Shown here: positions 4,980 through 38,712 of the stretch, piece by piece
Layout: every line of letters starts with the position of its first letter
How positions within the stretch are numbered: the stretch's first letter is position 1
Assembly: GCA_903845295.1 (NCBI GenBank)
Contig: CAIMWV010000001.1
Location: 1-45,270, forward strand
Direction of reading: 5' to 3'
Source of the DNA: Candidatus Staskawiczbacteria bacterium
GTDB lineage: Bacteria; Patescibacteriota; Minisyncoccia; Minisyncoccales; Staskawiczbacteraceae
DNA: 45,270 nucleotides
Notes under the pieces: generated by a model
The model's database searches: none
What the model was told of the DNA's origin: nothing
The model's input: only the letters and a program-made list of their open reading frames with translations
Program-made: the position numbers and the translations under genes

Positions 4980-5725
4980 CAATAATCAAATCAGAAAAAG
5001 AAATTCAAATAATAAAAGAAGGCGGAAAAATTTTAGCCACCGTTGTAAAGGAATTAGAGAAAATGGCTAAACCCGGAATTACAACTTTAGAATTAGACAG
5101 AGCCGCAGAGGCTCTTATTTTGTCTTTTGGGGGCAAACCGGCTTTCAAAGGTTATGACGGCTTTCCTTATTCTCTCTGCGCCTCGGTAAATGAAAATATT
5201 GTGCATGGGTTTCCTTCAGATTATGTTTTGAAAAATGGCGATATATTAAAATTAGACCTTGGAGTCTTATATAATGGTTACAATACAGATATGGCAATAA
5301 CAGTTGCTGTCGGAGAAGTTTCCTTTGAGGCAAAACGACTGATGAATGTTACAAAAAAATCTTTAAGGTTAGGAATTAAAAAAGCAAAAATTGGAAATAC
5401 AATTGGAGATATTGGAAACACCGTCGGCAGATTTATTGAAGACCAGGGATTTGGAGTTGTAAGGGACTTGTGCGGCCACGGAATCGGAAAAAACGTCCAC
5501 GAAGACCCGAAAATCCCAAACTTCGGGAAAAGGGGGACAGGAGAAAAACTGGCTGAAGGAATGGTAATTTGCATTGAACCGATGGTAACAATGGGCGACT
5601 GGCAGATAAAAAGATCCAAAGACGGTTATGGTTACCAGACAAAAGACGACTCTCTTTCAGCTCATTTTGAACACACGCTTGCTATTACCAAAAACGGGCC
5701 GGTTGTATTGACAGAAATAGATTAA
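4976..5725 (+). CDS. map: Methionine aminopeptidase, type I
   Basis: The 249-aa protein shows the metal-binding pattern of the pita-bread fold: LDLGVLYNGYNTDMA (two Asp), CGHGIG (His), CIEPM (Glu) and FEHTLAI (Glu), with substrate-binding His in ENIVHGFP. It removes the initiator Met from nascent proteins. It overlaps adk by four bases (ATGA), so it is likely translationally coupled. The 3' end contains a TTGACA box that starts the promoter of the next, GC-rich gene. Confidence 0.96.
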   Translation: MTIIKSEKEIQIIKEGGKILATVVKELEKMAKPGITTLELDRAAEALILSFGGKPAFKGYDGFPYSLCASVNENIVHGFPSDYVLKNGDILKLDLGVLYNGYNTDMAITVAVGEVSFEAKRLMNVTKKSLRLGIKKAKIGNTIGDIGNTVGRFIEDQGFGVVRDLCGHGIGKNVHEDPKIPNFGKRGTGEKLAEGMVICIEPMVTMGDWQIKRSKDGYGYQTKDDSLSAHFEHTLAITKNGPVVLTEID

Positions 5726-5736
5726 TATGATACAAT
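5708..5736 (+). promoter_or_regulatory. Near-consensus sigma70-type promoter for orphan gene A
   Basis: TTGACA (5708-5713) and TACAAT (5731-5736) are separated by exactly 17 nt. The -35 box lies inside the last codons of map. The predicted start near 5743 gives a leader of about 125 nt for gene A. Confidence 0.75.
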
Positions 5737-5750
5737 ATAAATATAAATTC

Positions 5751-5851
5751 GGACTTTGAAAACTTATTTTTGTCCCCGCTAAAGAGCATTTATATGTTTT
5801 TTCGCGGGGACAAAATCTTTTTTCGACGCGTGGGCGAAAAAAGATAAGTCC
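5751..5851 (+). promoter_or_regulatory. Structured leader of orphan gene A (attenuator-like)
   Basis: Arms ggactt (5751-5756) and aagtcc (5846-5851) close a domain holding two hairpins. Hairpin 1 is ttttgtccccgc/gcggggacaaaa (5768-5779/5804-5815), followed by TCTTTTTT like an intrinsic terminator. Hairpin 2 is atcttttttcg/cgaaaaaagat (5815-5825/5835-5845) and captures the same U-tract. This competition resembles a terminator with a built-in switch. No known riboswitch class is recognised, and the ligand or trigger is unknown. Confidence 0.6.
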
Positions 5852-5868
5852 TAGGAAGGGAGCTAAAG

Positions 5869-6105
5869 ATGGCGATATCCGTTTTGAATACGACCGTTCC
5901 CGGGTCTCAACATGAGGCCTGCGAGGGCTGTGGCAGTTCGTCAGTCAGCATCCAGTTAACCGATGAAGCTAACGCGGCTTGGTTCTGCGGAACCTGCGCG
6001 GGAGACTCGGAGAAGGTTGGGGTCGCATTTGCGAAGATGCGAAGGGTGTTGACGGCCCGCACGGAGGGAAGGAAACTCCACCTGGGACTGGCTTGCTCCA
6101 ACTAG
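5869..6105 (+). CDS. Orphan gene A: small zinc-ribbon-like protein, GC-rich
   Basis: I do not recognise a family. The 78-aa protein has two CxxC pairs (C18-x2-C21 and C40-x2-C43), a spacing consistent with a single zinc ribbon. A basic helix-like stretch follows (FAKMRRVLTARTEGRK). Zinc binding is inference. The ATG at 5869 is preceded by an aaggga ribosome binding site, unusual among its native neighbours. Codon use is GC-rich, unlike map and tpiA. It is a single-gene unit with its own promoter, structured leader and terminator, which suggests transfer or a separate history. Confidence 0.7.
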   Translation: MAISVLNTTVPGSQHEACEGCGSSSVSIQLTDEANAAWFCGTCAGDSEKVGVAFAKMRRVLTARTEGRKLHLGLACSN

Positions 6106-6125
6106 GAAGCTAGTATTTTGTTTAT

Positions 6126-6156
6126 GGGCAGCGCGCGTTGTGCTGCCTTTTGTTTT
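6126..6156 (+). terminator. Intrinsic terminator of gene A
   Basis: Stem ggcagc/gctgcc (6127-6132/6142-6147) is followed by ttttgttt. It ends the gene A unit just before the next promoter. Confidence 0.75.
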
Positions 6157-6170
6157 GCAGATTTATATAT

Positions 6171-6199
6171 TTGACAAAGAAATATTTATAAATTAATAT
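6171..6199 (+). promoter_or_regulatory. Near-consensus promoter for orphan gene B
   Basis: TTGACA (6171-6176) and TAATAT (6194-6199) are spaced by 17 nt, directly after the gene A terminator. The leader to the ATG at 6320 is about 115 nt. Confidence 0.75.
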
Positions 6200-6231
6200 T
6201 TAACCATTGTTCTTTAAAATTTTTATATTTG

Positions 6232-6273
6232 ACTCCACATTTTAGGGCGTTTAAGTGTTTTAAAATGTGGAGT
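6232..6273 (+). promoter_or_regulatory. 13-bp leader hairpin of gene B
   Basis: actccacatttta (6232-6244) pairs perfectly with taaaatgtggagt (6261-6273), and taagggttttgttt follows. A strong hairpin between promoter and ribosome binding site is shared by the neighbouring GC-rich units A and C. It could act as a weak attenuator or stability element. Confidence 0.6.
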
Positions 6274-6319
6274 TAAGGGTTTTGTTTCAGTTTGAGCCCG
6301 CAGAAATGGAGGAGGATTT

Positions 6320-6646
6320 ATGGCTTTAATTGTTTTAGAGCGTGATCAGAAATCAGATCATGCCTGCCAGGCTCAGGGCTGTCCTTTTGTGCCATGTAAG
6401 GCGAGTACATTCATCTTGGAAGACACATCAGATCGCATGCTCGGCTTTTGTGCCAATTGTGCTGAGCCATGGGGAGAAGGCAACGGTTTCGGGGATAGGG
6501 TTTATCTGACTTTCAATTTGCCGATTCCTGAACGCCCTAAACCCGAGCCTGCTTCCAAACGGCCGATAAGTAAAGAGGAGCGCGAGTTTCTGGTTGCTAA
6601 GGGTAGCAAACCGAGCCGCCGGCTAGACATCGGCATACCGGCTTGA
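6320..6646 (+). CDS. Orphan gene B: Cys-rich zinc-ribbon-like protein, GC-rich
   Basis: The family is not recognised. The 108-aa protein has Cys at 16, 21, 26, 44 and 47 (HACQAQGCPFVPCK and GFCANCAEPWG), a likely metal site similar in layout to gene A. A Pro-rich linker (PIPERPKPEP) and a basic C-terminal tail (KPSRRLDIGIPA) follow. A ggaggagg ribosome binding site precedes the ATG. Composition is GC-rich. The two adjacent Cys-rich orphans may be distant relatives or work together; sequence alone does not show their role. Confidence 0.65.
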   Translation: MALIVLERDQKSDHACQAQGCPFVPCKASTFILEDTSDRMLGFCANCAEPWGEGNGFGDRVYLTFNLPIPERPKPEPASKRPISKEEREFLVAKGSKPSRRLDIGIPA

Positions 6647-6668
6647 TACATCCCTTTTTTGCCGTAGA

Positions 6669-6707
6669 CCCCGCAGTCGCACCAAGCGATTGCGGGGCTA
6701 TTTTTTA
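6669..6707 (+). terminator. Intrinsic terminator of gene B
   Basis: ccccgcagtcg/cgattgcgggg (6669-6679/6687-6697, one G-U pair) is followed by ctatttttt. The stem is strikingly like the gene C terminator, which shares CCCGCA and CGATTGCGGG. Confidence 0.85.
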
Positions 6708-6732
6708 CAATTTTTTATAGAATACATTAATA

Positions 6733-6761
6733 TTGACAAATTTTTATTTATGTTATACAAT
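6733..6761 (+). promoter_or_regulatory. Near-consensus promoter for orphan gene C
   Basis: TTGACA (6733-6738) and TACAAT (6756-6761) are separated by 17 nt. The leader holds two small hairpins, caaaac/gttttg and ctgcga/tcgcag, before an aaggag ribosome binding site. Confidence 0.75.
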
Positions 6762-6833
6762 ATCAGTATCAAAACACTGTGTTTTGGTCTGCGATTAACT
6801 TCGCAGTTTGTAAACTAAAACAAGGAGATGGCC

Positions 6834-7190
6834 ATGGTTTACGTTGCGTTGATTCTCGGTTTCAACTTCTTGGTTGGCACTGGTATCGCCACCGCAGTTA
6901 TCATCAGCCGCCTGCGGAGTCGCCGGTCACAGATCGACTGGGACGCGCCATTGGCTGCCAGCCGTCAGCCACAGATCGACTGGGACGCGCCATCGACGGC
7001 CGCTGGGTGGGATCCGGATGATGAGTACCGCCAGCGCAAGGCCGCAGAACGTGAGCGCCAGTTGGCAAAGCGCGAGCCGAAGCTGCGCGCGGTGATTCGC
7101 ATGTTCATCATCCGCGACGATGGCACCAGGATTCCGTTGGCCTACGGCGCCACGGTGCCTCTCGGCGCCACGGTCGAGCTTCGCGGCTAG
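6834..7190 (+). CDS. Orphan gene C: small single-pass membrane protein, GC-rich
   Basis: No family is recognised. The 118-aa protein begins with a hydrophobic segment (about residues 2-25, VALILGFNFLVGTGIATAVII) followed by basic RLRSRR, so the C-terminus should be cytosolic. A tandem repeat QIDWDAP occurs twice, encoded by two identical 24-nt blocks 42 nt apart. A charged helix-like region (RQRKAAERERQLAKRE) and a beta-rich tail follow. I chose ATG 6834 because its distance from AGGAG is right; ATG 6828 is too close. It is a stand-alone unit with its own promoter and terminator. Confidence 0.65.
   Translation: MVYVALILGFNFLVGTGIATAVIISRLRSRRSQIDWDAPLAASRQPQIDWDAPSTAAGWDPDDEYRQRKAAERERQLAKREPKLRAVIRMFIIRDDGTRIPLAYGATVPLGATVELRG
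6928..6993 (+). repeat. Tandem 24-nt repeat inside gene C
   Basis: cacagatcgactgggacgcg plus ccat is identical at 6928-6951 and 6970-6993, a 42-nt period. It encodes the duplicated QIDWDAP motif. Confidence 0.9.
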
Positions 7191-7215
7191 GACCCGCTGA
7201 TTGTGAAGGTTAAGA

Positions 7216-7256
7216 AGTCCCGCAGAATCGTTTAACGATTGCGGGACTGTTTTTTT
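7216..7256 (+). terminator. Intrinsic terminator of gene C
   Basis: agtcccgca/tgcgggact with inner aatcg/cgatt is followed by gttttttt. It ends just before tpiA and shares its CGATTGCGGG arm with the gene B terminator. Confidence 0.85.
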
Positions 7257-7292
7257 ACATTTCGATATTTTATGATAGAATATATTAATATT

Positions 7293-7994
7293 ATGAAATC
7301 TTTAATTGTAGCTAACTGGAAAATGAATCCGGAAAGCGCCAAAGAAGCGAAGGCTCTTTTTAGCGCAGTGAAAAAAGGAATAGCCGGATTGAATAAAAAA
7401 ATAGATGTTGTTATGTGCCCGCCATACGAATATTTAGGCCTTTTAAAGGGTTTAATTTTGGGAGCGCAGAATTGTTTCTATGAGGAAAAAGGAGCTTACA
7501 CAGGCGAAATTTCAGCTTTAATGCTGAAAAATATGGGCGTTGAATATGTTATTTTGGGGCATTCTGAGAGGAGACGAATGGGCGAAACTGATGAGCAAAT
7601 TAATAAAAAGCTCGTAAAGGCCGTCCAGGCGGGATTAACGCCTATCCTATGCGTCGGCGAAAAAAAAGAAGATAAAGACCGGGGTAAAAAACAAGAGGTT
7701 TTAGAAGCCCAAATTAAGCAATGTTTAGGGGGGATTACCGCAGATGTAGTTATAGCATACGAACCTGTCTGGGCTATTGGAACGGGGGATAATTGCGGGG
7801 TTGACGAAACCAAAGAGTCAATTGATTTTATAAGAAAATTTGTTAAAACTGGAACAAGAATACTTTACGGGGGGAGTGTGAAAAGCGATAATTCCGGTAG
7901 TTATTTAAAAGAAGCTGGTGCTAATGGTTTGTTGGTTGGCGGAGCTTCATTAAATGCCAAAGAATTTATTGGAATTGTAAAATCAGCGGAGTAA
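7293..7994 (+). CDS. tpiA: Triosephosphate isomerase
   Basis: From ATG 7293 the protein is 233 aa and starts MKSLIVANWKMN. Catalytic residues are visible: Lys in NWKMN, His in LGHSERR, Glu in AYEPVWAIGTG, and the phosphate-binding YGGSV and GLLVGGASL. It interconverts dihydroxyacetone phosphate and glyceraldehyde 3-phosphate in glycolysis. The track start at 7239 lies within the upstream terminator and is rejected. Composition returns to AT-rich here. With eno and gpmA in the same window it points to a functional lower glycolysis. Confidence 0.96.
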   Translation: MKSLIVANWKMNPESAKEAKALFSAVKKGIAGLNKKIDVVMCPPYEYLGLLKGLILGAQNCFYEEKGAYTGEISALMLKNMGVEYVILGHSERRRMGETDEQINKKLVKAVQAGLTPILCVGEKKEDKDRGKKQEVLEAQIKQCLGGITADVVIAYEPVWAIGTGDNCGVDETKESIDFIRKFVKTGTRILYGGSVKSDNSGSYLKEAGANGLLVGGASLNAKEFIGIVKSAE

Positions 7995-8003
7995 ATAATA
8001 TTT

Positions 8004-8040
8004 AAAAAGGCCGTTCTGCAATATTGAGCGGTCTTTTTGT
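8004..8040 (+). terminator. Intrinsic terminator of tpiA
   Basis: aaaaaggccg pairs with cggtcttttt (one G-U) around a 15-nt loop and ends in TTTTTGT. It separates tpiA from the RNA gene that follows. Confidence 0.75.
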
Positions 8041-8041
8041 A

Positions 8042-8070
8042 TTGACGTGGCTTGTGAAAAGGTGTAAAAA
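8042..8070 (+). promoter_or_regulatory. Promoter of the structured RNA
   Basis: TTGACG (8042-8047) and TAAAAA (8065-8070) have 17-nt spacing. The predicted start is near 8077, just before the first long stem of the RNA. Confidence 0.65.
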
Positions 8071-8076
8071 AAAGAT

Positions 8077-8438
8077 ATCCGGGCGGTTGGCGTGCTTACA
8101 AGCACATTTGTGGCATGAGCCTCCCGCGAAGTTGGGCTCATAATATGATGTGGGGTCCGAGAGATTCCGCGCCAACCGCCCTAGCTGTCATTTGACATTC
8201 AAGGTTGGAACGATTGGTAGTTCTTTTGAGGGGGTTCTCTCTAGCCGCGTTTTCTCAGTAGCGGCGAGCGAAAAGAAAACCTGAGGGAATTCCGCTCAAA
8301 AGAGGACTGTCTGTCACGCATATCTCTCCCGGGCTAACAAATGATTGGAGAGAAATACTGCAAAGTTTGCGTGATGGCGGCTTAGTGCCGCGCCAGTCGT
8401 TCCTTCATATTCCCAGTGCTTTAGCGCTGGTTTTTTTT
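8077..8438 (+). ncRNA. Stand-alone structured RNA of about 360 nt, class unknown
   Basis: The region has no credible ORF, is more GC-rich than the genes around it, and has its own promoter and terminator. Domain 1 is closed by a perfect 12-bp stem gggcggttggcg/cgccaaccgccc (8081-8092/8170-8181) with inner ATGAGCC/GGCTCAT (8115-8121/8135-8141). Domain 2 is closed by tcttttgag/ctcaaaaga (8222-8230/8295-8303) and can form a pseudoknot: gccgc/gcggc (8244-8248/8261-8265), with loop gttttct (8249-8255) pairing agaaaac (8274-8280). Domain 3 is closed by gactg/cagtc (8305-8309/8394-8398) with tcacgca/tgcgtga, tctctcc/ggagaga and gcggc/gccgc. I looked for and did not find the RNase P GAGGAAAGTCC core, the tmRNA tRNA-like ends or the SRP GGAAGGAAGC motif. 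A highly divergent version of a known RNA remains possible. Confidence 0.75.
8413..8438 (+). terminator. Intrinsic terminator of the structured RNA
   Basis: ccagtgc/gcgctgg (8413-8419/8424-8430) with a ttta loop is followed by eight T residues, giving a sharp 3' end. Confidence 0.9.
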
Positions 8439-8462
8439 GCACACCGGAGAAAACAGCGGAAG

Positions 8463-16871: not shown

Positions 16872-16899
16872 TTGTATTTTTTATAGTTTAGTGTAAATT
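16872..16899 (+). promoter_or_regulatory. Possible promoter of purH
   Basis: TTGTAT (16872-16877) and TAAATT (16894-16899) have 16-nt spacing, a weak match. A cagc/gctg hairpin lies between it and the purH ribosome binding site. Confidence 0.4.
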
Positions 16900-16970
16900 T
16901 AGAATGGCAGCTTGAGGCGTTCTCTTGCTGTTGTACGTTGAGTCAAACAAGACTGGAGGGAGGAAGAGCC

Positions 16971-18572
16971 ATGAGTGCGAAAATCGCGAGGGCGCTATTG
17001 AGCGTCTCCAATAAGGCCTGCATCGTCGAGTTTGCCCAGGCGCTTGTAGCGATGGGCATAGAGTTGCTTTCCACAGGCGGAACAGCCAGTTCTTTGCGCG
17101 CCGCCGGAGTCAATGTCAGGGATGTCAGTGAACTGACAGGCTTTCCGGAAATCATGGATGGCCGCGTCAAAACGCTGCATCCCAAGGTTCACGGAGGGCT
17201 GTTGAAGAGGCGCGGTAATCTAAAGCACGAAGCCGAGGCAACTACCAATGGAATCGGAGAGATTGATCTGCTCGTGGTCAACCTCTATCCTTTCGAAGAG
17301 ACAGTGGTTAAGCCAGGCTGTACATTCGCCGATGCAATCGAGCAGATTGATATCGGCGGCCCGGCCATGCTGCGTTCTGCCGCAAAGAACTCGGAATTCG
17401 TGACCGTTGTCTGTGATCCGGGCGACTACGCCAGTGTACTGGTGGAATTGCGAGCCAATAGCGGCAACACCCTGCTCGCAACGCGAATGGAGCTCGCGGC
17501 CAAGGTCTTTGCTATGACCAGCCGCTATGACGCGGCCATCTGCAGGTATTTGGAGGTTGAGGGCCAAGCAGGCCCGCCGGCCACCTTCGCCCTGCACGCG
17601 ACCCTGAAACAGGCCCTTCGCTATGGCGAAAATTCGCATCAGAAAGACACTGCGCTGTATGCGTTGCCTTCCGACGAACCATGTGCGGCCAATGGTCGCA
17701 AAGCCTCGGGCAAGGAGATGGGCTACAACAATCTGATGGATATGGATGCCGCGTTCGAAGTTGTCAAGGAATTCCCGCGACCTGCGGCCTGTATCGTCAA
17801 ACACCGCAATCCTTGCGGTGTAGCAGTTGCGGATAGCTTACTTGCGGCCTATCAGGCGGCTTATGCTGGTGATCCGGTTTCGGCCTTCGGTGGAGTACTT
17901 GGATTGAATGGCATATTGGACGAAAGGATCGCTGAGGCGATGCTGGCAGTGAAGGGCTTCAAGCTCGACGCAATTGTCGTACTCGCGATTGTTCCTGGCG
18001 CCCTGGAAATACTGACAACGAAAAAGAAATGGGGCAAGGAAGTCATCGTGGTCGAGACTGGTGGGCCTACCGGTGCAGATGGCATCCTCAGCCTCGGAAA
18101 GCGAGCTATATGGCGCGACGCTCGCACAATTCCGGGCGGCGTGCTGACGCAGTCCTGCGATAGGCTGACGCAAGAGGAGGAGTTCGCCAACCTGAAGACC
18201 GTGACGAAGCGCGAGCCGACTGCAGAGGAAATCGAGGCACTGAAGTTTGCCTGGGTTGTCTGCAAGCACGTCAAGTCTAACGCTATCGTGTTGGGCAGAG
18301 GAAACACGATTGTGGGAGTTGGCGCGGGGCAGATGTCTCGCGTGGACTCGGTTGAAATCTCCATTAAGAAGGCAGGTGATCGGGCCAGGGGCGCGGTGTT
18401 GGCCAGCGATGCCTTCTTCCCATTCCCGGACGGACCTGAAGCTGCGGCAAGGGCTGGTGTGACAGCCATAATCCAGCCCGGCGGCAGTCAGAAGGACAGC
18501 GAAACGATTGCCGTGTGCGACAAATACGGCATCGCCATGGCCTTCACCGGGATCAGGCACTTCAGGCACTAA
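16971..18572 (+). CDS. purH: Bifunctional AICAR formyltransferase / IMP cyclohydrolase
   Basis: From ATG 16971, preceded by ggagggagg, the protein is 533 aa, the normal PurH length. The N-terminal MGS-like cyclohydrolase domain shows STGGTASSLRAAGV and GFPEIMDGRVKTLHPKVHGG. The C-terminal AICARFT domain shows LRYGENSHQ, the catalytic KHRNPCG (K277, H278) and SDAFFPFPDG. It performs the last two steps to IMP. Composition is clearly GC-rich, with a strong ribosome binding site, unlike flanking native genes. It is a single-gene unit ending in its own terminator, which suggests horizontal origin. Both active sites look intact. Confidence 0.95.
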   Translation: MSAKIARALLSVSNKACIVEFAQALVAMGIELLSTGGTASSLRAAGVNVRDVSELTGFPEIMDGRVKTLHPKVHGGLLKRRGNLKHEAEATTNGIGEIDLLVVNLYPFEETVVKPGCTFADAIEQIDIGGPAMLRSAAKNSEFVTVVCDPGDYASVLVELRANSGNTLLATRMELAAKVFAMTSRYDAAICRYLEVEGQAGPPATFALHATLKQALRYGENSHQKDTALYALPSDEPCAANGRKASGKEMGYNNLMDMDAAFEVVKEFPRPAACIVKHRNPCGVAVADSLLAAYQAAYAGDPVSAFGGVLGLNGILDERIAEAMLAVKGFKLDAIVVLAIVPGALEILTTKKKWGKEVIVVETGGPTGADGILSLGKRAIWRDARTIPGGVLTQSCDRLTQEEEFANLKTVTKREPTAEEIEALKFAWVVCKHVKSNAIVLGRGNTIVGVGAGQMSRVDSVEISIKKAGDRARGAVLASDAFFPFPDGPEAAARAGVTAIIQPGGSQKDSETIAVCDKYGIAMAFTGIRHFRH

Positions 18573-18622
18573 CAAAGCTCTTTCAATATAAAACAAAGGT
18601 ATCCTTAGAAGGATAGTCAGTC

Positions 18623-18656
18623 GCCGGGGTAGCGTACAGCTTCCCGGCTTTTTTTA
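18623..18656 (+). terminator. Intrinsic terminator of purH
   Basis: gccggg/cccggc (18623-18628/18643-18648) is followed by seven T. A smaller tatcct/aggata hairpin lies just before it. Confidence 0.85.
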
Positions 18657-18658
18657 TC

Positions 18659-18686
18659 TTGCTTATTTTTTCACAATTGGTAATAT
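18659..18686 (+). promoter_or_regulatory. Promoter of purM
   Basis: TTGCTT (18659-18664) and TAATAT (18681-18686) have 16-nt spacing, immediately after the purH terminator. Confidence 0.5.
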
Positions 18687-18692
18687 CTAATC

Positions 18693-18743
18693 AGCACCTG
18701 AAAAATTTAATTCCGAACAGTTCGGATTTTTTCCGGTGGTGCT
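18693..18743 (+). promoter_or_regulatory. purM leader hairpin with terminator-like core
   Basis: agcacc (18693-18698) pairs with ggtgct (18738-18743), and gaaaaat pairs with attttttc. The core hairpin ccgaa-cag-ttcgg (18713-18725) is followed by A and six T, as in an intrinsic terminator. The T-run can thus be paired (read-through) or free (termination), an attenuator-like arrangement. The trigger is unknown. Confidence 0.5.
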
Positions 18744-18758
18744 AAGTGGAGGTGGGTC

Positions 18759-19919
18759 ATGAATAGCGCGAATGGCGTTGTAGAAACTAAGTACACCCAA
18801 GATGGAGTAAACGTGGTTGAAGGAGACACATTCAGCCGCTTTGCCGGTAATCTCTGCCGAACAACTTACGGAAACTCTCGGTACGTTGAGGTGCGGGATT
18901 TTTCCCGCGGCCATTTCCGGGGTCCCCGAGGTTTCCGGCTGAAGGGAATACCCGAAGACTGTTGGCTGGACGCCACTCCTGATGGCGATGGGACCAAGGT
19001 AGTGCTGGTTGACGCCGCCGGCGACTATGACAACGCGGCTTATGGCTGGATTGCGATGGTATGCGGAGACATCACACGCTGGGGCGGAATTCCGCTGGTC
19101 TTGGTTAACAACCTGGATACGGAAACCATCGGCAAACGCGGCCAGCCGGTCAACGATGCGTTCCGTGCCATGATGGTTAGTGTTCAGCGGATCGCAAATG
19201 AGCAACAGCTCATCATGTTCAAAGGTGAAACCGCAGAACTTCCGGGCTGTGTAACTTCGCCAAACACAATGGCTCTCGCAAAGTATCTCTGGTCAGGGGT
19301 CGCCATCGGCGCTTATAACCCCAGAACCATCATCACCGGCGATCAGATTCAAGAAGGCATGGTGGTCATGGCTCTGCGCGAACTGGGCCTGCGCAATAAC
19401 GGCATCAGTTCGGCGCGTAAGGCCATTGTTATGGCATTCGGGTCGCTCTCTTGTCCTGAGGCCAAGGAGGCTGTCAAAAAGGCGGCAACGCATGCCGTTC
19501 TCTACGACAAATTCCTGGCAACCGCCAATGGTTGGTTTGCTGAAGACTTCAATCCGCTTGTCCCGATGTATCTAATCGTGCATGTGACGGGCGGGGCCAT
19601 CAAGTCGAAGTTTGCCGAGGATATTCTCTTCCCGAGAGGACTTTCGGCGCATCTCGACAATCTGTGGGAACCGCCGGAGATTATGCAGCAGTGCGCTAAA
19701 TGGCGCGGCATGAGCGATGAGGAATGCTACGAAACCTGGCATGGCGGACAAGGGGCGCTTGCGGTGATCGACGCCGCTTACGAGCTGAAGTTCGTCAATT
19801 TGGCGAGAATCTTCGGTGTCGAAGCAAGATGCGCCGGCAAGATCACCAAAGAAGACCGGCCTACCATGGTAATTGAATCCAAATTCACCGGGAAGACCAT
19901 TCCATGGTTTGCGAAGTGA
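18759..19919 (+). CDS. purM: Phosphoribosylformylglycinamidine cyclo-ligase-like protein (AIR synthetase), divergent
   Basis: The 386-aa protein shows the PurM motifs in order: DGDGTKVVLVDAAGDY (family DGVGTK), GGIPLVLVNNLD, FKGETAELPG, GLRNNGISSARK (family SNGYSLVRK) and HVTGGAI, then MSDEECYETWHGGQGAL. AIR synthetase closes the imidazole ring in step five of purine synthesis. It is longer than E. coli PurM (345 aa), with changes inside otherwise fixed motifs, so substrate should be confirmed. A ggaggtggg ribosome binding site, GC-rich codons and a private terminator match purH just upstream. Confidence 0.8.
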   Translation: MNSANGVVETKYTQDGVNVVEGDTFSRFAGNLCRTTYGNSRYVEVRDFSRGHFRGPRGFRLKGIPEDCWLDATPDGDGTKVVLVDAAGDYDNAAYGWIAMVCGDITRWGGIPLVLVNNLDTETIGKRGQPVNDAFRAMMVSVQRIANEQQLIMFKGETAELPGCVTSPNTMALAKYLWSGVAIGAYNPRTIITGDQIQEGMVVMALRELGLRNNGISSARKAIVMAFGSLSCPEAKEAVKKAATHAVLYDKFLATANGWFAEDFNPLVPMYLIVHVTGGAIKSKFAEDILFPRGLSAHLDNLWEPPEIMQQCAKWRGMSDEECYETWHGGQGALAVIDAAYELKFVNLARIFGVEARCAGKITKEDRPTMVIESKFTGKTIPWFAK

Positions 19920-19972
19920 AAGCTTCCTTTGTGGAGTGATCCGCGCAAGCAACATTTTTCAGAAAACCACAG

Positions 19973-20007
19973 GCCCGACGATTGCAGTTTCGTTGGGCTC
20001 TTTTTTA
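19973..20007 (+). terminator. Intrinsic terminator of purM
   Basis: gcccgacg/cgttgggc (19973-19980/19991-19998) then CTCTTTTTT. The loop contains attgcag, a word also seen in the terminators of genes B and C. Confidence 0.85.
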
Positions 20008-20053
20008 CATTTTTGCCTATTGCATATATTTTTTGAAATGATAAAATACTAAT

Positions 20054-36593: not shown

Positions 36594-36622
36594 TTGACAC
36601 CAGTTTAATTTTTTTGTAAAGT
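36594..36622 (+). promoter_or_regulatory. Promoter of the pyrF-pyrE unit
   Basis: TTGACA (36594-36599) and TAAAGT (36617-36622) with 17-nt spacing. The leader to the pyrF ATG at 36888 is about 260 nt, far longer than for any other gene here. Confidence 0.55.
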
Positions 36623-36659
36623 CATTATACAAAGGATTTCACATGCGCATTGTGCGTTG

Positions 36660-36860
36660 TGGTCCTTTCGAGGCCCTTTGACATTTGAAAATAGGACGAG
36701 AGCAGATATCTTCGGCGTTGATGGTTGGCTTCCAATGGGGGCCCCAACGCATACTTGGTTGCTTTCTATAAGACCAAGAAGATATTGCTCGACTCCGACA
36801 ACAGAGTGTCGAAGCAAGGTGTCGCCTGTCCTTTGGATGGGTCCCGTGTCCTCAGAATAA
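36660..36860 (+). ncRNA. Structured pyrF leader RNA (riboswitch-like, class unknown)
   Basis: A 13-bp stem gagca-g-atatcttc/gaagatat-tgctc (36700-36713/36778-36790) closes a three-way junction with hairpins gcgttg/caacgc (36715-36720/36745-36750) and cttggt/accaag (36754-36759/36773-36778). GTCCT occurs at 36662, 36828 and 36848 and can pair alternatively with AGGAC (36693-36697), which allows switching. The layout recalls a riboswitch upstream of a pyrimidine gene, but the conserved purine-riboswitch junction bases are not present. No credible ORF is seen (the 67-aa track ORF lacks support). This covers most of the 349-nt gene-free stretch. Confidence 0.55.
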
Positions 36861-36887
36861 GGGGGAATAAGTAAAGGAGGATTCGCC

Positions 36888-37775
36888 ATGGGTTTTCGGG
36901 CGATGTTGGAAAAAAGACAGAAGGAGGCCAAGACCTTGGTTTGTGTGGGGCTTGATCCTCTCGGAGACAAGCTGCCTGACTGCATGAGGGTTGGGGATGA
37001 TGTGGCGCAGAACATAAGGGTTTGGATGACGAAGATCGCTGATGCGACGGCGCCATTCGCCTCGATGTTCAAACCGCAGCGGGCGCACTGGGAGGCAATC
37101 CGCGGAGGGGAGCAAGCTCTCAGGGAATTGGTTACGATCATCCATGAAAAGCATCCGGGGATTCCGGTGTTTGGAGACTGCAAGCGCGGCGACATTGGCC
37201 GCACCCAGCAGCAGTACCGCAAAGCGCATCTGGATCTGGACGGCTTCAACGGCATGAACTTTTCGCCCTACATGGGCCGGGACTGCATGTCTGGGCTCGT
37301 TGACAAGAAGAGCCCTGGCAGGGCTCTGGTAGGGCTGTGCTACACAAGCAATCCGGACGCCAGGGAAGTTCAGGACGTGAAGCTCGCCGACGGCAGATGT
37401 TATTGGGAATTCATTGCCGAGCGCACATTGGCTTGGGCCAAGGAACTCGGTGTTGTCGAAGACGCTGGCATGGTGATGGCGGCAGCTTACGAACTTCCGC
37501 CAAAAGGATCAGGTCAGGTTTATGCCGAACATCTTCGGCGTTGCCGCCAGATAGTCGGTAACAGCCTGTGGTTCCTTATTCCCGGCGTCGGCGCCCAGAA
37601 AGGCGCTGTCGCTGAGACGGTGCGCTATGCCTATGCCGGGCCTGGAAGCATCGCCATTAACTCATCGTCGGAAATTGATTTTGCCAGTTCCGGCGCCGAT
37701 TTCGCCGAGGCGGCTGCGAAGAAGGCCATGGAATTGCGCGATGCGATAAACCTCGCGCTTCCGCAAACCGCCTAA
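36888..37775 (+). CDS. pyrF: Orotidine 5'-phosphate decarboxylase (type 2)
   Basis: The 295-aa protein matches the longer type 2 OMP decarboxylases: LVCVGLDPLGDKLP, the catalytic DCKRGDIGRT (D97, K99, D102), LVGLCYTSNPDAREVQD and FLIPGVGAQKGAV. It makes UMP from OMP. An aggagg ribosome binding site precedes the ATG. GC-rich composition contrasts with the genes on either side. It is followed after 103 nt by pyrE in the same orientation without a terminator in between, so the two form an operon. Confidence 0.94.
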   Translation: MGFRAMLEKRQKEAKTLVCVGLDPLGDKLPDCMRVGDDVAQNIRVWMTKIADATAPFASMFKPQRAHWEAIRGGEQALRELVTIIHEKHPGIPVFGDCKRGDIGRTQQQYRKAHLDLDGFNGMNFSPYMGRDCMSGLVDKKSPGRALVGLCYTSNPDAREVQDVKLADGRCYWEFIAERTLAWAKELGVVEDAGMVMAAAYELPPKGSGQVYAEHLRRCRQIVGNSLWFLIPGVGAQKGAVAETVRYAYAGPGSIAINSSSEIDFASSGADFAEAAAKKAMELRDAINLALPQTA

Positions 37776-37802
37776 CGCAACTCTATCCAGGTGTTTTAAT
37801 CC

Positions 37803-37831
37803 GCCGTTGTATATTCGCGGCGGATTGATTG
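37803..37831 (+). repeat. Hairpin in the pyrF-pyrE spacer
   Basis: ccgccg/cggcgg with flanking aat/att pairs forms a strong hairpin (about 37799-37828) without a T-tract, so it may stabilise or process the mRNA. Nested around it are aggtg and cacct, which could form an outer stem. Confidence 0.55.
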
Positions 37832-37878
37832 GGAAGTTTTGAAGTTTGGCACCTAACCCAAAGAAAGGCAGGTAAAAC

Positions 37879-38526
37879 ATGAAAACCTGGAAACAGGTTT
37901 TTCAGGAAGCGGGAGCCGTCTGGATTCACGATGGGCGGCCAACCGCTCCGCATGCAGAGCTTACGTCCGGGCTTCATTCGGACGGATTTGTGAACTGCAC
38001 GTTCGTTACTCGTCAGCCGGGTCTGATTCGGCAAATGGTCTCAAAGAACCAGCCGATCGGCATGGAGACGAACCTTTGGCCGATTCTGGCCCCGCTCATG
38101 AACCAGCTCGACTGGGTGGTCGGTTCGGCGTTCGGGGCAATTACCCTTGCTTCCGCTATTGCCGAGGAAGCTGGCGGCGGGGTGATGGCCGGCTTTACGG
38201 AAAAGGACGGCGACCTGATGAAGTTGGCCCGTTTCGAGATCGGGAAAGGCCGACGGGTGTTGGTGGTCGAAGACGTAATTTCGACCGGAGGTTCCACGCT
38301 CAAAACCATCGCCGGCATTCTCGCCAGCGGTGTACCGGCGGAGAATATTCTCCCGTACATCGTTTGTCTGGTGAACCGTTCTGGTTTCGGGACTCTGGAT
38401 GGTCGGACAATTCGGGCTCTCCTGGAACCCGAAATTCACACGTGGCAACCGGCTGGGTGCCCGCTGTGCCAAGGCGGTTCCAAGGTGCTTCGGCCCAAGA
38501 AACATTGGGCCGAGCTCACTAAGTAA
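37879..38526 (+). CDS. pyrE: Orotate phosphoribosyltransferase
   Basis: The 215-aa protein has LTSGLHSDGFVN near residue 29 and the PRPP-binding VLVVEDVISTGGST (127-140), preceded by GAITLASAIAEEAGG. It joins orotate and PRPP to make OMP, the substrate of the neighbouring PyrF. The C-terminus has CPLCQGGSKVLRPKKHW, a Cys pair absent from E. coli PyrE. An aggcagg site precedes the ATG. GC-rich like pyrF. It ends in its own terminator. Confidence 0.93.
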   Translation: MKTWKQVFQEAGAVWIHDGRPTAPHAELTSGLHSDGFVNCTFVTRQPGLIRQMVSKNQPIGMETNLWPILAPLMNQLDWVVGSAFGAITLASAIAEEAGGGVMAGFTEKDGDLMKLARFEIGKGRRVLVVEDVISTGGSTLKTIAGILASGVPAENILPYIVCLVNRSGFGTLDGRTIRALLEPEIHTWQPAGCPLCQGGSKVLRPKKHWAELTK

Positions 38527-38554
38527 GTCCCTTCGGGGAATAGAATGAATCTAA

Positions 38555-38594
38555 AGGTCTTTTGGCATTTGCACGCCATTGGACCTCTTTTTTT
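38555..38594 (+). terminator. Intrinsic terminator of pyrF-pyrE
   Basis: aggtc/gacct with inner tggc/gcca (38555-38586), then CTTTTTTTG. Confidence 0.8.
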
Positions 38595-38615
38595 GTAAAT
38601 TTTGAACAGGTCTTG

Positions 38616-38712
38616 AGTCTTCACCCTAAAGGCAAAACTTTTATAAAACAATTAAAATATCATTAAATAATTTATTTTTTAAACGAAACTTATTGTGGGA
38701 AGGGTGAAGACT
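38616..38712 (+). repeat. 12-bp inverted repeat with AT-rich centre
   Basis: agtcttcaccct (38616-38627) and agggtgaagact (38701-38712) are perfect inverted repeats around 73 nt of AT-rich sequence. They lie between pyrE and the ftsZ-like gene. No ORF fits inside. It may be a large hairpin or a remnant of a small mobile element. Confidence 0.75.

Follow-up and report, generated by a model that had tools for sequence, protein, structure and literature searches.

Three consecutive single-gene units, here termed modules A, B and C, lie between map and tpiA in a 45,270-nucleotide stretch of Candidatus Staskawiczbacteria DNA (the window), which is the entire contig C1 of a draft genome designated G000 (779 kb, 35 contigs, GC content of 39.4%, 95% complete), whose size and gene set are in keeping with Patescibacteria. 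They are not a unit apart and belong to a set of about 60 such modules in G000. We consider it probable that A, B and C, as members of this set, are autonomous, moron-like units that were acquired laterally and that the interval from map to tpiA served as their insertion port. Module acquisition is well supported, and the cassette-like acquisition that an earlier sequence-only reading had proposed draws support from empty sites in relatives, from different genes at the same gap, and from a distinct genome-wide class of GC-rich genes led by Shine-Dalgarno (SD) sequences and having promoters and terminators of their own.

Architecture and coding capacity of modules A, B and C

Each of the three modules was confirmed to consist of a TTGACA promoter with a 17-nt spacer, a structured leader, a strong SD sequence a few nt upstream of the start codon, an open reading frame (ORF) and a terminator (Table 1), as the sequence-only reading had described. 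The strict promoter pattern TTGACA-N16-18-TANNNT occurs six times in the window against 1.1 expected, a number reached in none of 100 shuffles, and three of the six are the promoters of A, B and C. When the leaders were folded and compared with dinucleotide shuffles, z scores of -5.9 (A), -4.6 (B) and -2.4 (C) were obtained. Terminator C is 70% like terminator B over 44 nt. The composition claimed to be alien and GC-rich for all three modules was indeed so for A and C, with GC contents at third codon positions (GC3) of 0.68 and 0.76, respectively, while that of B is only moderate (GC 0.51, GC3 0.48).

When all six frames were scored with a codon model that had been trained on other modules, the annotated frame ranked first for each of A, B and C (z = 2.9, 3.2 and 4.6, respectively). 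Paired cysteines are present in A and B and C appears to have one transmembrane segment, in agreement with the earlier description of two Cys-rich proteins and a small protein of membrane type. A and B are likely to be small zinc-binding proteins and C a small membrane-anchored protein, as judged from their sequences. ORF C has an N-terminal hydrophobic segment, a tandem QIDWDAP repeat encoded by an in-frame 42-nt tandem repeat (6918-7001), a basic linker and a short C-terminal segment; its start was placed at 6834 and not at 6828 because the SD sequence abuts the upstream ATG. The C-terminal motif SxxxxEFLxxxGxxPSRR of B also occurs in another module protein of G000 (C30:40234; 0/500 shuffles). 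AlphaFold models of A and B made without an alignment were poor, with predicted local distance difference test (pLDDT) scores of 54 and 50.

The prediction that A, B and C are unrecognisable was borne out by searches of genomes, GTDB, IMG/VR, phages, plasmids, family libraries and the PDB. No relatives were detected in 246 other genomes of the order, and neither GTDB r220 nor IMG/VR, phages or plasmids gave a real match in pattern scans, which reach close relatives only. Nothing exceeded the curated cut-offs in Pfam, NCBIfam, PHROGs or PADLOC, and nothing in the PDB was convincing. Candidates that were rejected include a PDB match of A to a designed-looking repeat protein (whole-sequence E = 6e-7, with no stretch passing alone), which is probably due to chance, a GTDB match (L107) that was a chance match to an MFS transporter, and a match within G000 on contig C35 that contains stop codons and lies in AT-rich DNA. 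A function shared by the three, also envisaged by the sequence-only reading, is not supported, as no mutual homology was detected and their class mixes purine enzymes, a radical SAM protein, an ACP and orphans.

The strong leader hairpins and the lack of homologues are what would be expected if A, B and C were structured non-coding DNA rather than protein genes, yet the codon signal in all three, the SD sequences and the zinc-ribbon cysteines speak for proteins. No Rfam family was found for them either, the matches at E ≤ 1 being one real tRNA and weak chance matches, and we regard the non-coding explanation as extremely improbable.

A genome-wide class of GC-rich, SD-led genes

In G000, about 55-66 ORFs, about 47 kb in total, combine a GC3 of at least 0.55-0.57 with an SD sequence and are dispersed, alone or a few in a row, between genes that are AT-rich; ORFs were called on fetched contigs with a simple script, and all such counts are approximate. 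The GC3 of these modules is about 0.57-0.65, versus 0.37 in native genes. A strong SD sequence precedes 76-77% of the GC-rich set and 6-8% of native genes, both figures being somewhat inflated by a start-site choice that favours SD-bearing starts for all ORFs, whereas a -10 box 4-12 nt upstream of the start, the leaderless-like arrangement, was found for 26-33% of native genes and for 0% of the GC-rich SD class. A GC3 of at least 0.55 was associated with a strong SD sequence (odds ratio 25, Fisher p = 2e-27), with an own terminator (odds ratio 8.4, p = 6e-14) and with an exact TTGACA (odds ratio 8.0, p = 4e-10). The leaders of modules also fold more strongly than native upstream regions (mean z -1.8 vs -0.8, p = 2e-4).

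The same class emerged when selection was blind to composition. Genes taken by SD sequence and terminator alone had a median GC3 of 0.57, versus 0.37 in genes without an SD sequence (p = 2e-25), and the corresponding medians in G018, a complete genome of the same family, were 0.59 and 0.43 (p = 9e-11). The GC3 split applied to G018 yielded 22 GC-rich genes, of which 95% had an SD match of at least four bases, 77% had a terminator and none was leaderless-like. Few modules were present in partial samples of eight other genomes, and therefore their numbers vary by genome and G000 may be unusually rich. A boxA-like CTTTGA in the leaders showed weak enrichment only (9 vs 3.3 in G000 and 3 vs 2.4 in G018) and was dropped. 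Two identical inverted module copies occupy mirror positions in G000 C26:9285-18654, which may reflect either a genuine inverted repeat or a fold in the assembly.

Insertion ports in related genomes

The genes surrounding A, B and C are housekeeping genes, namely ribosomal protein genes, secY, adk, map, tpiA and alaS. Although the modules had been said to interrupt a contiguous map-infA region, the gene pair that they actually split is map-tpiA; tpiA, alaS and others stand between map and infA even without them. In at least five genomes of the same genus (G001, G003, G004, G006 and G009) map is directly followed by tpiA, and in G011 the gap holds only a short AT-rich insert. Elsewhere in the order, in G018, G015, G013, G020 and G025, the ORFs next to map exceed the local genes in GC3; they encode two proteins with one transmembrane segment, a STAS-like protein (L083, G013) and two larger orphans. 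The comparison across relatives proposed in the sequence-only reading gave a locus that is empty or differently filled, and no homologue of A, B or C with native composition was seen there in the genomes examined. The map-port orphans L084 (G020) and L094 (G025) have a common C-terminal segment (E = 2e-4), and GC-rich modules for STAS-domain-like proteins recur across genomes and sites (L083 in G013, G018:430996 and G018:503704).

A second port lies between rpsI and a PDDEXK gene. It holds purH and purM in G000, purM in G007, another purM in G003, purL in G004, an ACP gene in G001, a zinc-ribbon gene and a second ORF in G009 and a secreted-type gene in G014, and it is empty in G010. Both ports thus have the same flanks and differing contents in related genomes.

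Lateral acquisition versus long residence

It may be argued that the modules have long resided in the lineage, where a separate codon usage, SD sequences and leaders were kept by selection for strong or conditional expression, and are not recent imports. The same gene class exists in G018, and G007 has, at the same port, a purM with 77% identity to the G000 gene and with a related leader; some modules are therefore inherited. Furthermore, a candidate distant relative of C was found at the map port of G018, in another genus (score 41 vs 24.6 +/- 4.1, 0/500 shuffles; one of three candidates tried), and, if real, would mean a longer residence. On the other hand, Map is 75-85% identical across the genus, while the PurH of G000 is 51% identical to that of G002 and 35% to that of G008, and its PurL is 38% identical to the partial sequence of G004 (with Map at 80-81% for G008 and G004), so that these enzymes are not orthologous between sister species. 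Sequences with 47-50% identity to the PurH of G000 occur in records labelled Acinetobacter, Salmonella and Listeria, although such records may represent bacterial DNA that was entered as phage. The 48-50% for Acinetobacter and Salmonella is like the value for G002 and above that for G008. Ports are also occupied by unrelated genes or by nothing. Old residence is considered decidedly unlikely. The few purH loci that were read outside the family were not GC-rich relative to their surroundings.

Besides the G007 purM and the candidate relative of C, several observations weigh against lateral acquisition of moron-like units. Flanking repeats are weak except for C and few others, and none of 46 modules in G018 had flanking repeats above the null. 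About 8% of native genes also have a strong SD sequence. Common sharing of leaders by modules was not found, with 10 pairs at E ≤ 0.01 compared with 30 among native flanks. Because A, B and C have no relatives, their own lateral origin is argued from composition, empty sites and analogy.

Insertion junctions and candidate routes of entry

The spacers that follow the three modules resemble one another as degenerate direct repeats (at 6154, 6702 and 7260, spaced by 548 and 558), and the repeat shared by the post-B and post-C spacers exceeds 500 shuffles. In G000, flanking repeats exceeded the 99% null for five of 62 modules (0.6 expected), versus one of 95 native genes; comparison of G000 repeats with the empty sites of relatives was mostly not significant. 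The position of promoter A is that of the tpiA promoter in relatives, with the -35 box within the end of map, which suggests that A, B and C may have entered at the tpiA promoter with its partial duplication.

The same observation is also compatible with ordinary single-gene transfer, with promoters, leaders and terminators that originated or were captured locally; the module format would then reflect convergence and not import. The site at the end of map that once held the tpiA promoter may now serve A, relatives have a -35-like hexamer at the end of map and a -10 box where the A promoter lies, and the leaders and terminators of most modules are mutually unrelated. However, C has its own promoter copy, and the purM modules of G000 and G007 have similar leader hairpins and terminator positions. 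We consider capture in place possible, though doubtful.

A single mobile vector (a plasmid, a virus or a cassette system of the clade) that inserts promoter-leader-ORF-terminator units by a dedicated recombinase was also considered. Unrelated ORFs in G000 (C21:3188, 9594 and 12684) have a common promoter-leader (78-81% over 72-78 nt), and a 19-nt leader hairpin, GCNYGAGGMGTWCTCYNGC, precedes different genes in three species. C is flanked by repeats, and all three intact inverted-repeat elements found, which resemble miniature inverted-repeat transposable elements (MITEs), adjoin GC-rich modules, the copy in the window being located 3' of the pyrE-like module. In contrast, repeat sharing among native flanks is similar or higher, and module homologues were not found in IMG/VR or plasmids when A, B, C, purM and pyrF were tried. 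The sole match to PF00589, a tyrosine recombinase, is Xer-like (229 bits to XerD vs 105 to the integron integrase, far under the cut-off of 265), an IntI-type integrase was not found in the G000 draft genome, and the ORF list of 5700-7300 contains no mobility genes of a transposon, integrative conjugative element or prophage. A common vector is thus very improbable. The MITE-like elements are about 100 bp long with inverted ends like TTGACCCTTCACC/GGTGAAGGGTTGA, and are found at 38619-38708 in the window and at C27:11370-11462 and C27:61657-61750 in G000.

For the favoured explanation, lateral acquisition of moron-like units, the following mechanism may be proposed. DNA would enter by natural transformation, a ComEC family protein being present in G000, and recombination close to the terminators at operon ends would then join it to the chromosome, duplicating part of the port sequence. 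Transcription of each module would start at its own sigma-70-type promoter and end at its own terminator, which insulates the unit, and translation would rely on a strong SD sequence preceded by a folded 5' leader. With a promoter, an SD sequence and a terminator of its own, a module could therefore reside within a largely SD-less set of native genes and leave them undisturbed. The modules would provide accessory traits, most visibly a purine pathway pieced together from separate modules. A stronger form, which we hold to be unlikely, is that the clade has a dedicated, hitherto undescribed route by which promoter-leader-SD-gene-terminator units are imported, with duplication of the port sequence, at fixed ports that follow operon-end terminators, and that these units make up a separate SD-dependent expression layer over a largely SD-less native one.

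Cargo and leader elements of other modules

Module proteins that scored above NCBIfam cut-offs are PurH, PurL (of the long single-chain type), PurC, PurD, PurN, PyrF and DapA. Those below the cut-off yet clear include PurM, PurB, PyrE, a LeuB-like dehydrogenase, a sugar kinase, a cytidine deaminase, an ACP and a radical SAM protein. Many further modules encode small orphans, several of them with zinc-ribbon cysteines, and a CsrA-like module was observed in G018 at 233333.

The GCNYGAGGMGTWCTCYNGC hairpin has four copies in 247 genomes of the order, all in the same genus (L169-L172), located at 16910-16928 in the window, G000 C30:13766-13784, G008 C6:16301-16319 and G004 C3:9196-9214. The genes behind it are purH, purN, a distant purH and a gene for a 290-aa secreted-type protein. 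It is possibly a cis-regulatory RNA; a purine-specific element was ruled out, as in G004 it stands in front of a gene that does not belong to purine synthesis.

The stretch between tpiA and the next gene (8040-8440) is GC-rich, has no long ORF and ends in a terminator-like hairpin (8413-8430). It is perhaps a non-coding RNA or one more module.

Table 1. Features of the map-tpiA port and other modules of the window
Feature	Positions	Strand	Remarks
Promoter A, TTGACA-17-TACAAT	5708-5736	+	-35 box inside the last codons of map
Leader A	5743-5868	+	Two strong hairpins; 22-nt arms 5768-5789/5794-5815; SD AGGAAGGGAG, 5853-5862
ORF A, 78 aa	5869-6105	+	CxxC...CxxC zinc-ribbon-like orphan
Intrinsic terminator A	6126-6156	+	Stem-loop 6126-6148 listed by scan
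AT-rich spacer 3' of A	6154-6201	+	Degenerate copy (65%) of post-B spacer; contains B promoter
Promoter B, TTGACA-17-TAATAT	6171-6199	+	Pattern scan
Leader B	6200-6319	+	20-bp hairpin 6229-6276; SD GGAGGAGG, 6308-6315
ORF B, 108 aa	6320-6646	+	Cys-rich orphan
Intrinsic terminator B, CCCCGCAG...CGATTGCGGGG	6669-6704	+	Stem-loop 6669-6697 listed by scan
Spacer 3' of B	6702-6749	+	Direct repeat of post-C spacer/tpiA promoter region
Promoter C, TTGACA-17-TACAAT	6733-6761	+	74% like A promoter over 42 nt
Leader C	6768-6833	+	Hairpins; SD AAGGAG 6822-6827
ORF C, 118 aa	6834-7190	+	GC3 0.76
Intrinsic terminator C	7219-7258	+	Hairpin ~7219-7245, then TTTTTTT; identified by reading the sequence
tpiA promoter region	7260-7292	+	-10 TAGAAT 7276-7281, ~11 nt 5' of ATG, leaderless-like
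purH module	16899-18660	+	ORF 16971-18572; SD; terminator; GCTTGAGGCGTTCTCTTGC leader hairpin 16910-16928
Divergent purM module	18670-20010	+	ORF 18759-19919
pyrF module	36594-37870	+	ORF 36888-37775
pyrE-like module	37871-38600	+	ORF 37879-38526; terminator

Comparison with known systems and implications

The anatomy of the modules matches the definition of phage morons (PMC4378225). A, B and C each have a single ORF with its own promoter and terminator and a composition unlike that of their neighbours (weakly so for B), and modules are inserted between genes that are adjacent in relatives, both at map-tpiA and at rpsI-PDDEXK. The absence of a visible recombinase target and the diversity of the cargo are further likenesses. 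Unlike morons, which belong to phage genomes, the modules have chromosomal housekeeping neighbours, number about 60 per genome, include core biosynthetic enzymes and are SD-led amid mostly SD-less native genes. By analogy, the modules would work like morons, yet they are not classed as morons, the host DNA being chromosomal.

Chromosomal hotspots of horizontal gene transfer are known (PMC5635113); they occupy fixed intergenic positions at which unrelated genes replace one another among related genomes, as at the present ports. The map and rpsI ports differ in that they hold one to three self-contained single-gene units. Larger islands are typical of hotspots. Integron cassettes are likewise small single genes that form arrays of two or three and turn over between related genomes, but they are promoterless, whereas each module comes with a promoter, and the one tyrosine recombinase detected in G000 is Xer-like. 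The lateral and patchy metabolism of the Candidate Phyla Radiation, with independently acquired metabolic genes, is also known, and the source describes, in the part considered, gene distributions and trees rather than module architecture or ports (PMC7304191). Some narrow literature searches yielded no paper on SD-led or leaderless genes in Patescibacteria or Parcubacteria, which is no more than weak evidence of novelty.

In conclusion, a single small genome contains two classes of genes that appear to differ in their translation-start signals. The module format (SD sequence, high GC3, own promoter and terminator), found at comparable ports, offers a homology-free means of listing genes that are likely to have been acquired, including orphans such as A, B and C. 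Small genomes of this kind have little biosynthetic capacity, and the present results suggest that they acquire traits stepwise, through single genes. If a dedicated import route does exist, reduced genomes would rebuild pathways, such as purine synthesis, by means of single insulated genes.

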